Shown here: in pieces, positions 8,791-15,622 of the stretch
Numbering within the stretch: the stretch's first letter is position 1
How the letters are laid out: every line of letters begins with the position of its first letter
DNA from: Candidatus Nealsonbacteria bacterium
GTDB taxonomy: Bacteria; Patescibacteriota; Minisyncoccia; Minisyncoccales; JAGGXC01
Direction of reading: 5' to 3'
Assembly: GCA_026396195.1 (NCBI GenBank)
Contig: JAPLXH010000012.1
Span: forward strand, 1-37,024
Length of the DNA: 37,024 bases
Program-made: the position numbers and the translations under genes
Notes under the pieces: generated by a model
The model's input: only the letters and a program-made list of their open reading frames with translations
The model's database searches: none
What the model was told of the DNA's origin: nothing

Positions 8791-8997
8791 TTATTCGCTA
8801 AATTCATCATATTCATCTTCCATGTTTTCTAATTCATCAACTCCTTCTTCCTCCTCCTCTTCTAGCCCTTTTTCCTTTTCCCCGGGTTCTTCTGTCGGTT
8901 CCTCGGGGCTTTCTTCCGGCACGTCTTGTTCCAATCCTTCGTCCAAGTCAAAATCATTTTGGTTAACGAAAGGGTCGCGCGTTTTCTTTTTTTGCAT
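8791..8997 (-). CDS. Small highly acidic protein
   Basis: A 68-residue protein starting M-Q-K-K-K-T-R-D-P-F. After the basic start nearly every other residue is Glu or Asp, with Pro-Glu repeats (EESPEEPTEEPGE) and a run of Glu near 48-53. It has no membrane segment and no recognisable domain, and is probably disordered. Support for a real gene comes from its own consensus promoter on the minus strand (9084-9111) and the terminator 18 bases past its stop. Acidic tails like this occur in nucleic-acid mimics and RNA polymerase delta-like proteins, but I cannot assign a function. The Ser-rich plus-strand frame over it is the antisense of the Glu-rich codons. Confidence 0.65.
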   Translation of the reverse strand: MQKKKTRDPFVNQNDFDLDEGLEQDVPEESPEEPTEEPGEKEKGLEEEEEEGVDELENMEDEYDEFSE

Positions 8998-11547: not shown

Positions 11548-12267
11548 ATGTTGGAAAAATTAAACATGGGAGTGCCGACTCCCATAGGGCTAGCCATAAT
11601 TTCTCTTCTTGCTATGTTGGTGGGCGGGCTTAGTATTTCCCAGTATTTTGATGTAAAAAAAGAGCAAACTTTTGAGGAGGAATTAAATTTTTTACAGACA
11701 AAAATTCAAGAAAAGAGGTTCGGGTGGGAAATTTATAAAAATGAAGTTTTAAAAATCCAGCTTGAATATCCCAAAGAAATTGTTTCTCTTTTGGAAGAGC
11801 AAAATAAAATATCTTTAAATCATTTTGTTGCTTTTGAGCATAACGACCCCTGTGATTTTAAGGGAGACAGTTTAAAGCTTAAAGAATTGGTTGATTTTAA
11901 GGTTAATTTTGAAATTTTTAAGGGAGGACTGGAAGAAGCGGTCAAGAACAATGAAAGCAAGGAGTTCTTTTCTGATTATTTTTTAAACAAAAAACTTAAG
12001 TTAGAACCCGGATTCATTGATGAAATTACGATTGGTAATTTGAATGGTTACCTTATAACTGAGGGAATCGAGGGTTGCGGCCAGTATGTTTATTATTTTC
12101 CGTTAAATTCGAAAAACACCTTGATTGTTTGGAGAGCCTTTGTTCCGGAGTTCCAGCCGATAATTGCGGATTACCAAAATAATTTGCAAATACCCGGCAT
12201 TATTTCTCCGGAAAAAGAGGAAAGCCTGTTTAAACAAATATTTTCTACTTTTAAATTAATTGATTAA
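11548..12267 (+). CDS. Membrane-anchored hypothetical protein
   Basis: Not recognised. The 239 residues start with a short cytoplasmic end and a membrane helix at about 12-32 (PIGLAIISLLAMLVGGLSIS), then a charged helix (about 38-58) and a soluble mixed alpha/beta region. Two Cys residues (CDFKGDSLKL and GIEGCGQYVYYF) lie on the outer side and might form a disulfide. The segment WEIYKNEVLKIQLEYPKE resembles the start of small extracytoplasmic domains common in CPR hypotheticals. It is followed by the minus-strand RNA region. There is no convincing terminator for this gene other than the hairpin at 12291-12312, which reads better on the minus strand. Confidence 0.65.
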   Translation: MLEKLNMGVPTPIGLAIISLLAMLVGGLSISQYFDVKKEQTFEEELNFLQTKIQEKRFGWEIYKNEVLKIQLEYPKEIVSLLEEQNKISLNHFVAFEHNDPCDFKGDSLKLKELVDFKVNFEIFKGGLEEAVKNNESKEFFSDYFLNKKLKLEPGFIDEITIGNLNGYLITEGIEGCGQYVYYFPLNSKNTLIVWRAFVPEFQPIIADYQNNLQIPGIISPEKEESLFKQIFSTFKLID

Positions 12268-12280
12268 TTGATTGTTTTTT

Positions 12281-12312
12281 AAAAAAATAGCCCAAGTATA
12301 ACTAATCTTGGG
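12281..12312 (-). terminator. Terminator of the candidate small RNA
   Basis: On the minus strand CCCAAG (12312-12307), a 10-base loop, CTTGGG (12296-12291), then CTATTTTTTT. On the plus strand the same stem is followed by ATTTTTG, so it might weakly end the 11548-12267 transcript too. Confidence 0.65.
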
Positions 12313-12452
12313 ATTTTTGATTTCAGAAGAATACTAATTTATAAGGTGCTGGAGAGTGAGATAATGGGCCAGAAAAAGGGCCGGCTCGAGATGGGATTCA
12401 TAACTACCAAGGATGGGATGCACACTTTAAAAAACCTTCCCTTTTCTAGCCC
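12281..12452 (-). ncRNA. Candidate structured small RNA of about 170 nt
   Basis: No protein frame of note lies here. On the minus strand a consensus-like promoter points to a start at G12452. The first 14 bases (GGGCTAGAAAAGGG, 12452-12439) pair with CCCTTTTTCTGGCCC (12380-12366), giving 14 base pairs with one G-U and one bulged U. The enclosed loop holds two near-identical 11-mers, TGCATCCCATC (12422-12412) and TGAATCCCATC (12400-12390). After a linker of about 50 bases the unit ends in a terminator (CCCAAG/CTTGGG then CTA and seven T). It does not match 6S, SRP, tmRNA, RNase P or a riboswitch that I recognise. The exposed AUCCCAUC copies could act as seeds against G-rich ribosome sites. Confidence 0.6.
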
Positions 12453-12459
12453 GGATATA

Positions 12460-12487
12460 ATATTATATAAATTTTATTTTTTGTCAA
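12460..12487 (-). promoter_or_regulatory. Promoter of the candidate small RNA
   Basis: On the minus strand a perfect TTGACA (12487-12482), a 16-base spacer, and TAATAT (12465-12460), with a perfect TATAAT overlapping it at 12467-12462 (14-base spacing). The first G of the stable 5' stem lies 8 bases after the -10, the expected start-site distance. Confidence 0.6.
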
Positions 12488-12523
12488 TAAGTTCGTTGTA
12501 GGAGCTATGAGGCGCGAGTAAAG

Positions 12524-12577: not shown

Positions 12578-12703
12578 CTATTTGAAGAAAAATTTCCCGT
12601 TTCTTTTTTCTACATAGCCTTTTTTTGCCAGCTCATCGGCTCTTTCTTCTGTTGTTACTCTTCCAATACCTTTACCTTCTCCTCTTAAGATTTCTACTTC
12701 CAT
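12578..12703 (-). CDS. 41-residue small protein, unknown function
   Basis: A short minus-strand gene. The product starts M-E-V-E-I-L-R-G-E-G-K-G and ends K-R-N-G-K-F-F-F-K; it is charged and soluble with a predicted helix at about 18-30 (TEERADELAKKGYVEK). It has one of the clearest Shine-Dalgarno sequences in the window (GGAGGG, three bases before the ATG), its own consensus promoter at 12856-12883, a leader of about 145 bases, and a strong terminator just after the stop. I do not recognise a family; similar short Lys/Glu-rich proteins with an 'A-x-x-L-x-x-K-G-Y' pattern occur in phages. The signals make chance unlikely, but no homolog check was possible. Confidence 0.6.
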   Translation of the reverse strand: MEVEILRGEGKGIGRVTTEERADELAKKGYVEKRNGKFFFK

Positions 12704-12849
12704 TTTCCCTCCATTTGTGTAGGGAAGAGAGAGGGTTTTAGTTGTTCATTGAAAACCCCCTATCCTTATCCTACAGTTTGTAGAGAAATGATGGCAAATG
12801 AAGGCAAGCTCTGCTACAAGCTCTATTAATAAACCACCTCTTTCTCCAC
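12704..12849 (-). promoter_or_regulatory. Structured 5' leader of the 41-codon gene
   Basis: Read on the minus strand. A 10-pair hairpin (AGGGGGTTTT 12762-12753 with AAAACCCTCT 12738-12729, one G-U) contains a minimal ATG-AAC-AAC-TAA frame in its loop. Right after it, TTCCCT (12726-12721) can pair with AGGGAA (12710-12705), which covers most of the Shine-Dalgarno sequence. Further upstream GAGCTTG is repeated after 5 bases (12823-12805 region) and CTACA/TGTAG form a small hairpin. This layout would suit translational control by an RNA switch, a thermosensor or a bound factor. Confidence 0.5.
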
Positions 12850-12855
12850 GTTTCT

Positions 12856-12940: not shown

Positions 12941-15622
12941 ATGAAAAAGGTCATTTTACCGGCGGTTTTTGTTTTACTCCTATTTTTAGCGGGAGTTTTT
13001 TTGTTTATCGAGTTTAGGGAAGAAATCAGCGATAAAATAAAAAATTTTGTTTTTCAAAAAAACATTTTTTCTCCGGCAGCTTTAATATCAAGCTCTCTTT
13101 ATTTTTCTGATAAATTTCTGCCAGAAGAACAGCTTTATTTTAAAGAATCAAAAATCAATGACTCAAGAGAAAAACCGTCAAAGGTAAAAACAGAAATTAA
13201 TGATGAAGAGTTGAAATTATTAGAACTTCAGGAAATTTTAGACGATTTAACCGAAAAAGCCGATTTAATTGCTCGAGAAATAGAAGAAATGACAAAGAAA
13301 GAGATACTTAAAGACGAAGAACAAGAAATTTTAGAAAAAGAGATTGAAGACGAAAAAGATAAGGATAAGGAGCTTAAAGAAGAGCCGGAAAAAGAAAAAT
13401 TTGAAAAAGAACAAAATAAGGAAATTGTTTTTTGCAATAAAATACCGGGAATCGGTTCTTTAAGAAAAACAATTATTTTCAACGAAATTGCTTGGTCGGG
13501 CACAAAGACTTCGGCTAACGACGAATGGATTGAGCTAAAAAATATTTCCAATTCTCCGGTTGATTTAAAGAATTGGCAAATTTTAGACAAAGCCGGACAA
13601 ATAAAAATAGTTTTTGAAGAAAATCGGATTTTGTTCCCTCAAAGCCTTTATTTATTGGAAAGAACCGATGATAATTCAGCGCCCGGAGCAGCAGCTGATT
13701 TTATTTATCAAGGAATACTTAACGATGACGAAGAAGAACTGTATCTTTTTAATGATAATTGCGCCTTGGAAGATGAAATTATCGCAGTTCCTTATTGGCC
13801 GGCCGGTGATAAGATTGAAAAAAAATCAATGGAAAGAGGAGCAGATTTAAATTGGCACTCTTACTGCGGAGGACTTCAAAATGGAATTTCAGGAACGCCA
13901 AAAAATCAAAACAGTTTTTGTTTTTCAAATTCAGCCGGAGTTGGTTCAAATCCGCAGGCGCCCTTAGTTCTGGAGGAAAAATTTCCAAAAATTTTGATTA
14001 CCGAAGTCCAAATTGAAGGCAATGAATCTTTTTTTGATTTTATTGAGATTTATAATTCCAGCACTTATTCTGTTGATATTTCCAGCTTTCAATTAAAGAG
14101 AAAAAGCTCCAGCGGAACAGAATATTCAATAAGAATTTTCCCGGAAGGCAGTGTTATTTTGGCTAAAGATTATTTTTTGTGGATAAATTCGGATTACGCT
14201 TCTTTCAGTCAAATTTTAGCTGATGTTTCTTCTACTCAAACCTTAGCCAAAAATAATAGCATTGCTTTACTTGATAAGGAAAAAAATATCATTGATTCTT
14301 TGGCTTGGGGAAGCAGCAGCAATCCATTTTTAGAGGGAATGGCCTTTGTGGAAAACCCTGTGGAAAACCAAAGTTTAGGAAGAAAATGGGATAAAAAAAG
14401 TCAGAACTATCAAGACACGGAAAATAATTATCAAGATTTTGAAATTCAAGATTCAAGCCCTAGACTAATAAATGAATCTCTAAACCAAGCGCCAACATCT
14501 TCTTTCGTTTTTTATTCTTCTTCTTCGGTCTTGGAAATAAATCAAGAAATTATTTTTGATGCTTTGTTTTCCACTGACTCTGACGGGGAAATCAGTATTT
14601 TTTATTGGGATTTTGGCGACAATAACTCGGCTACTACCGCTTTAGCTACAACTTCCCATTCTTATTCTACTTTTGGGGATTATTTGGTGAACCTGATGGT
14701 CGTTGATGACAAGGGCAAAATCAGCTTGCCCGCTACTCTTAGTTTGAGTATAGTTTTTTTAGAACCGATTTTAGAGATAGAGCCTGATTTTTTTGATTTT
14801 CAAATTGAAAAAGGGGCAACTAGTTCAGAAATTAAAAATTTAATAATAAAAAATTCGGGGAAAGGCGATTTAAATTGGTTTATTTTTATTGCCTACGCAA
14901 CAGATACAACTCAGGTTGAATGGCTTTCAATAAGCTCAACCAGCAATATTCTTTTAGCCTCATCCTCTTTCAGTTTGGAAATTTCAATAATTCCCGATAG
15001 CTTAAAGGCCGGAGTTTATAGTGCGAAAATAAAAATAGAAAGCATGGAACTTGTCCTTAAATCAGTTTTGATTAATCTGGTTATTTTTAAAAATTTTTTA
15101 GCTCAAGATGTGGTAATAAATGAAATTGCTTGGATGGGGACAGAAGCCAATGCCAGTGATGAATGGATAGAGCTTTTTAACAACACCGAAGAAGAGATTG
15201 ATTTAACCGGCTGGAAGATTAAGTCATCGGAAGGAAGTTCGGAAATCGAGCTTTCCGGGAAAATCTTAACCCAAAATTATTTTCTTTTGGAAAGAACCGA
15301 CGACCAAACCATTTCCAATATTAAGGCTGATCAGGTTTATACCGGTGCTTTGGGAAACGACGGAGAAAAATTAGAACTAAGAGATGCTAGCAATAATTTA
15401 ATTGATTTTATTGATTGTTCTTCGGGTTGGTTTTTTGGCCAGAATCAGAAAATAGGGGACGAGTGGACGAGAGCGTCTATGGAAAGAAAAAATCCAAAAA
15501 ATTCCGGAAACGATTTATTAAATTGGGCAACAAACGATGGATTAAATATTATTGGCGAAGACGCGGAAAGTAATTATATTTTAGGCACCCCTAAGCAGCA
15601 AAACAGCGCTTATCTTCCCTGA
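12941..15622 (+). CDS. Surface protein with three lamin-tail domains and a PKD domain
   Basis: An 893-residue exported or anchored protein. A membrane helix at 4-24 is followed by a charged coiled coil (about 85-162, nearly all Glu/Lys). Domains in order: lamin-tail domain (LTD) 1 from about 178 (IIFNEIAWSGTKTSANDEWIELKN), a divergent LTD2 from about 350 (ILITEVQIEG...DFIEIYNSS), PKD domain about 518-604 (FSTDSDGEISIFYWDFGD), a BACON/Ig-like domain about 610-712, and LTD3 from about 723 (VVINEIAWMGTEANASDEW). LTD1 and LTD3 share many residues, suggesting internal duplication. Such proteins are surface-exposed in CPR bacteria and may bind DNA, glycans or other cells. There is no C-terminal sorting motif, so the N-terminal helix probably anchors it. 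Confidence 0.85.
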   Translation: MKKVILPAVFVLLLFLAGVFLFIEFREEISDKIKNFVFQKNIFSPAALISSSLYFSDKFLPEEQLYFKESKINDSREKPSKVKTEINDEELKLLELQEILDDLTEKADLIAREIEEMTKKEILKDEEQEILEKEIEDEKDKDKELKEEPEKEKFEKEQNKEIVFCNKIPGIGSLRKTIIFNEIAWSGTKTSANDEWIELKNISNSPVDLKNWQILDKAGQIKIVFEENRILFPQSLYLLERTDDNSAPGAAADFIYQGILNDDEEELYLFNDNCALEDEIIAVPYWPAGDKIEKKSMERGADLNWHSYCGGLQNGISGTPKNQNSFCFSNSAGVGSNPQAPLVLEEKFPKILITEVQIEGNESFFDFIEIYNSSTYSVDISSFQLKRKSSSGTEYSIRIFPEGSVILAKDYFLWINSDYASFSQILADVSSTQTLAKNNSIALLDKEKNIIDSLAWGSSSNPFLEGMAFVENPVENQSLGRKWDKKSQNYQDTENNYQDFEIQDSSPRLINESLNQAPTSSFVFYSSSSVLEINQEIIFDALFSTDSDGEISIFYWDFGDNNSATTALATTSHSYSTFGDYLVNLMVVDDKGKISLPATLSLSIVFLEPILEIEPDFFDFQIEKGATSSEIKNLIIKNSGKGDLNWFIFIAYATDTTQVEWLSISSTSNILLASSSFSLEISIIPDSLKAGVYSAKIKIESMELVLKSVLINLVIFKNFLAQDVVINEIAWMGTEANASDEWIELFNNTEEEIDLTGWKIKSSEGSSEIELSGKILTQNYFLLERTDDQTISNIKADQVYTGALGNDGEKLELRDASNNLIDFIDCSSGWFFGQNQKIGDEWTRASMERKNPKNSGNDLLNWATNDGLNIIGEDAESNYILGTPKQQNSAYLP

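Follow-up and report, generated by a model that had tools for sequence, protein, structure and literature searches.

In Listeria monocytogenes, the small RNA LhrC has three CUCCC(...)UUUU sites, which mutation and probing showed to bind the SD region of the lapB mRNA, and RNAIII, RsaE, SprD, and FsrA are named as proven users of the UCCC motif (PMC4132741). The sX13 RNA of Xanthomonas has three hairpins with C-rich loops, its targets are enriched in G-rich motifs near their starts, and its host is without a consensus ribosome site (PMC3771888).

Here we analyzed a window of 37,024 nucleotides, which is one contig (C12) of a Candidatus Nealsonbacteria genome of 792 kb in 13 contigs with 35% GC. 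On the minus strand of this window, a first-pass annotation had proposed a novel structured small RNA and had likened its repeated C-rich motif to the UCCC seeds of small RNAs that block G-rich ribosome sites. To our knowledge, little has been established about the regulatory RNAs of Patescibacteria. We are not aware of any trans-acting small RNA that has been characterised in this group, and our literature search for such RNAs turned up none. If it is transcribed, the locus would be a concrete candidate for a regulatory RNA of this group.

Transcription signals at the locus

The candidate (12281 to 12452, minus strand, about 172 nt) lies in the gap between a plus-strand gene for a 239-aa protein, whose stop is at 12267, and the gene for an 893-aa lamin-tail/PKD protein, whose start is at 12941. 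Judged by a neighboring beta-propeller protein, the closest named relatives are mostly Parcubacteria and other Patescibacteria MAGs, which agrees with the CPR origin assumed in the first-pass annotation. The promoter-like site claimed for the minus strand (12460 to 12487) is present as described, is of the sigma-70 type, and scores 10/12 against the consensus, with TTGACA at 12487-12482, a spacer of 16 nt, and TAATAT at 12465-12460. Based on the spacing from the -10 element, the RNA would start near 12452, and transcription would run from there to about 12281. The intrinsic terminator at that end (12281 to 12318, minus strand) has a CCCAAG/CTTGGG stem with pair probabilities of 0.98-0.99 in the folding model, an extension of A/U pairs, and then the clean run of seven T that had also been claimed. 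T runs flank this hairpin on both sides, seven on the minus side versus five on the plus side, and the hairpin is about 20 bases past the stop of the plus-strand 239-aa gene, so it possibly serves this convergent gene as well.

Genes of the genome were called greedily, contig by contig, and intergenic DNA of at least 100 bases was scanned for such signals, with dinucleotide shuffles as controls. Promoter-like sites scoring at least 10/12 numbered 140 in the real sequence and 24 in the shuffled, promoters with a perfect TTGACA 82 versus 2.25, and terminators 115 versus 6.4. A promoter and a terminator in the right order and 50-300 bases apart were found 8 times, compared with 0.125 times after shuffling. 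A slightly looser genome-wide list holds 18 distinct promoter-plus-terminator sites, the candidate included, of which 6 are tRNA genes, 1 is the leader before the 23S rRNA, and some others are genes for small proteins or gene starts that were called wrongly. Because the rule recovers true RNA genes, we believe from these signals that the candidate is very probably a real transcript. More generally, promoter-plus-terminator statistics can find RNA genes in such a genome without recourse to homology.

We also noted several other units of this kind. A 41-aa ORF at 12578-12703 on the minus strand (MEVEILRGEGKGIGRVTTEERADELAKKGYVEKRNGKFFFK) has a strong coding score, 0.60, which exceeds the median for real genes. 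It is preceded by a promoter of its own, TTGACA-16-TATATT (12883-12856), and by a leader of roughly 150 nt, and a hairpin terminator lies at about 12563-12530; no family matched it, and 147 relatives yielded no convincing homologue. Its long leader (12704-12850, minus strand) could hold a cis-regulatory RNA, and nothing in Rfam matched it above chance. At 8791-8997 on the minus strand there is a very acidic small ORF of 68 aa with the promoter TTGACA-16-TATACT and a strong terminator, and C7:66203 has another acidic small ORF like it, with a promoter scoring 12/12. On the minus strand at C10:33039, within the locus L192, a promoter-terminator unit of about 338 nt has no called gene and a strong predicted fold of -81 kcal/mol; when L192 was compared with Rfam, only a tRNA elsewhere in it matched. 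The tail GGTTTTTTGGTAGA directly behind the stem is common to several terminators, including that at C10:33039 and those after several tRNA genes.

Predicted fold and the repeat in the loop

The pairing proposed for the first 14 bases of the RNA proved exact apart from one bulged U. In the folding model, the 5' arm GGGCTAGAAAAGGG (12439 to 12452, minus strand, RNA positions 1-14) pairs with the 3' arm CCCTTTTTCTGGCCC (12366 to 12380, minus strand, RNA positions 73-87), with pair probabilities of 0.95-1.0 at both ends of the stem and 0.57-0.81 in its slipping A/U middle. The duplex that the first 14 nt form with the remainder of the RNA reaches -24.2 kcal/mol, compared with -8.7 +/- 3.0 kcal/mol for dinucleotide shuffles, none of which (0/1000) was as low. 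The 88-nt hairpin as a whole folds at -30.9 kcal/mol (z = -2.5), and the fold of the entire 172-nt unit is near chance (z = -1.3). When energy and GC were compared within the genome, 60 of 1188 intergenic windows of similar GC folded as well as the hairpin. The hairpin has a GC content of 0.49, versus a median of 0.30 for the intergenic DNA of this genome, and raised GC is typical of RNA genes in AT-rich genomes. The 5' stem would shield the 5' end of the RNA from decay and would present an open loop of about 58 nt. Taken together, the promoter and terminator enrichment and the strength of the stem support the prediction that the minus strand is transcribed here into an RNA whose 5' end is structured.

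As had been claimed, the stem encloses two copies of an 11-mer, GATGGGATTCA and GATGGGATGCA, at 12390 and 12412; they are identical at 10 of 11 positions and are spaced 22 nt apart. The accompanying suggestion that the C-rich motif is probably unpaired holds for copy 2 (TGAATCCCATC, 12390 to 12400, minus strand), which the model leaves mostly open, with unpaired probabilities of 0.71-0.94 over AATCCCATC, but not for copy 1 (TGCATCCCATC, 12412 to 12422, minus strand), where the CCC is predicted to be 84-94% paired. Among shuffled loops of 58 nt, 0.25% had a comparable repeat, versus 21% among shuffled units of 172 nt; the repeat therefore stands out only when the loop is taken as given. No other two ATCCCATC lie within 60 bp of each other anywhere in the genome, and the candidate unit itself is single-copy. 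In viral contigs, the exact 18-mer of the motif had no matches and the twin motif at fixed spacing had 9, a number that in our judgment is close to the chance expectation with 17 fixed bases.

Homology, coding potential, and competing explanations

Rfam bore out the statement that the candidate matches no RNA family: a search of the window at the gathering score gave no match, and in a search of the candidate region at E values up to 10 the best match was chance. A match of NsiR1 (RF02399) to the 3' part of the unit was rejected as chance, with 14.2 bits against a gathering score of 39 and E = 5.8. In the genome as a whole, the small SRP RNA (RF00169) and 6S RNA (RF00013) were not found, and tmRNA is present; the first two are either missing from the assembly or divergent.

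With blastn, neither the 147 relatives nor the 384 genomes sampled across the class gave more than short chance matches, and the two genomes of the same family had no homologue; the genomes searched included no other member of the genus, so the search could have overlooked an RNA confined to the genus. Phage and plasmid records gave no blastn match. A covariance-model search of related genomes had been proposed as a check, and a model built from the single sequence of the candidate found no homologue in the 147 relatives and 384 class genomes, with nothing above 25 bits outside the self-match of 224 bits. The best foreign match, at 24.9 bits (genome G165), was spurious: it joined two unrelated hairpins and skipped the loop. 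In 80 GTDB loci around the neighboring beta-propeller gene the RNA was absent, and the nearest syntenic locus (L071) has a different gene order and no such RNA. Given that no homologue was found in relatives, there is no sign of selection on the candidate. Thus the description "novel structured RNA" fits in that the 5' end is structured and no known family matches, but status as an RNA family does not follow, since with no homologue there is no covariation.

The unit had also been said to hold no gene, which is true for ORFs of at least 60 aa, but smaller ORFs exist on both strands. We scored these with a dicodon model trained on the genes of this genome, for which wrong frames have a median of -0.49 and a 95th percentile of 0.13, and genes have a 5th percentile of 0.005. 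Inside the unit, the 28-aa minus-strand ORF scores -0.59 and the 29-aa one -0.43, like non-coding frames. A plus-strand ORF of 51 aa that starts with GTG (12346 to 12501) scores 0.00, and the ORF taken only as far as 12453 scores 0.06 to 0.12, with 0.12 for 12346-12453, an ambiguous position between wrong frames and genes. Our expectation is that the candidate, if transcribed, is in all likelihood non-coding.

The plus-strand ORF could nevertheless be a small protein gene (12364-12501, 45 aa), with the minus-strand signals partly incidental. Its ATG at 12364 stands behind a well-placed GGAG with a spacing of 9 nt, and the intermediate score up to 12453 is compatible with coding. However, SD motifs are seldom used in this genome, there is no plus-strand promoter upstream, and toward its end the ORF runs through the AT-rich promoter of the minus strand. 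Pfam and NCBIfam gave no match, and what weakly matched in relatives was either an unrelated gene (glycosyltransferase-like, release-factor-2-like) or a stop-containing frame. We consider this reading quite improbable. Alternatively, the unit could be a short minus-strand mRNA for the 28-aa hydrophobic peptide (GTG 12425, MCIPSLVVMNPISSRPFFWPIISLSSTL), its ribosome site partly locked in the 5' stem in a manner that recalls type I toxin messages. The putative site, GGGAAGG, ends 9 nt upstream of the GTG and lies partly within the stem, but the peptide has the dicodon score of a non-coding frame, the spacing of the twin repeat is not divisible by 3, no antisense antitoxin was identified, and NCBIfam gave no match, so that we find this very hard to believe.

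We also regard it as unlikely that the transcript is functionless, arising from a chance promoter in a gene gap and ending at a bidirectional terminator whose actual role is to end the convergent 239-aa gene; this reading and the plus-strand ORF are the main competitors. The two-sided T runs so close behind that gene and the lack of conservation in the genomes searched fit such an origin, but it needs neither a strong 5' stem nor high GC, and the longer T run is on the minus side. As for a divergent 6S or SRP RNA, both models fail to match anywhere in the genome while controls do match, which leaves a place for one. Still, the candidate matches neither model even at E = 10, its ends do not pair as in the long rod of 6S RNA, and it is without the AGG...GGAA...AGCAG element of SRP domain IV. 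A housekeeping RNA would be expected to be conserved in relatives, which the candidate is not, and this explanation is barely credible. On balance, we favor the candidate as a predicted orphan small RNA gene, intergenic and restricted to a single lineage of Patescibacteria (CPR). Nearly every bacterium has orphan small RNAs, and because they are so widespread, the candidate is ordinary in kind unless it is shown to act.

Possible targets and known C-rich small RNAs

Trans-acting antisense is the usual default guess for RNAs of this type. For the orphan small RNA proposed here we make the same suggestion only tentatively: one mRNA, or a small number of them, would be bound by base pairing with the loop, chiefly with its second AUCCCAUC copy. 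We think it rather doubtful that the twin AUCCCAUC, held in one stem-closed loop of a lineage-specific regulatory RNA, binds two mRNA sites or a protein dimer.

The more specific analogy to a UCCC seed that blocks a G-rich ribosome site is unsupported, whether by the SD count, target pairing, or motif search, and the CCC of copy 1 is predicted to be paired. SD-like 4-mers precede 55 of 552 ATG genes, compared with 60 for a control window, although those before the starts show a small positional peak at -11 to -15. When the loop was paired with all start regions, the best duplex, at -29.9, was reached by 12% of shuffled queries, and the tenth-best was matched or exceeded by 87% of them; the gene starts in these tests are from a simple ORF caller, and real targets may be few. 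GATGGGA and GGATGGG occur in no -30..+10 start region of the genome.

With the UCCC-type small RNAs, the candidate has in common an independent promoter and an intrinsic terminator, both as sequence signals, but not complementary G-rich targets at ribosome sites, and no sequence relation was found to LhrC, RsaE, RNAIII, SprD, or FsrA. Like LhrC, the candidate has a terminator of its own and more than one UCCC-bearing site in a loop or single strand; in the candidate, however, one of the two CCC is predicted to be paired, its host makes little use of SD motifs, and no target emerged clearly. The candidate differs from sX13 in having one large loop with AUCCCAUC and no GATGGGA or GGATGGG among the start regions of its host, but the two RNAs share C-rich loop sequence, and both of their hosts do without a consensus ribosome site.
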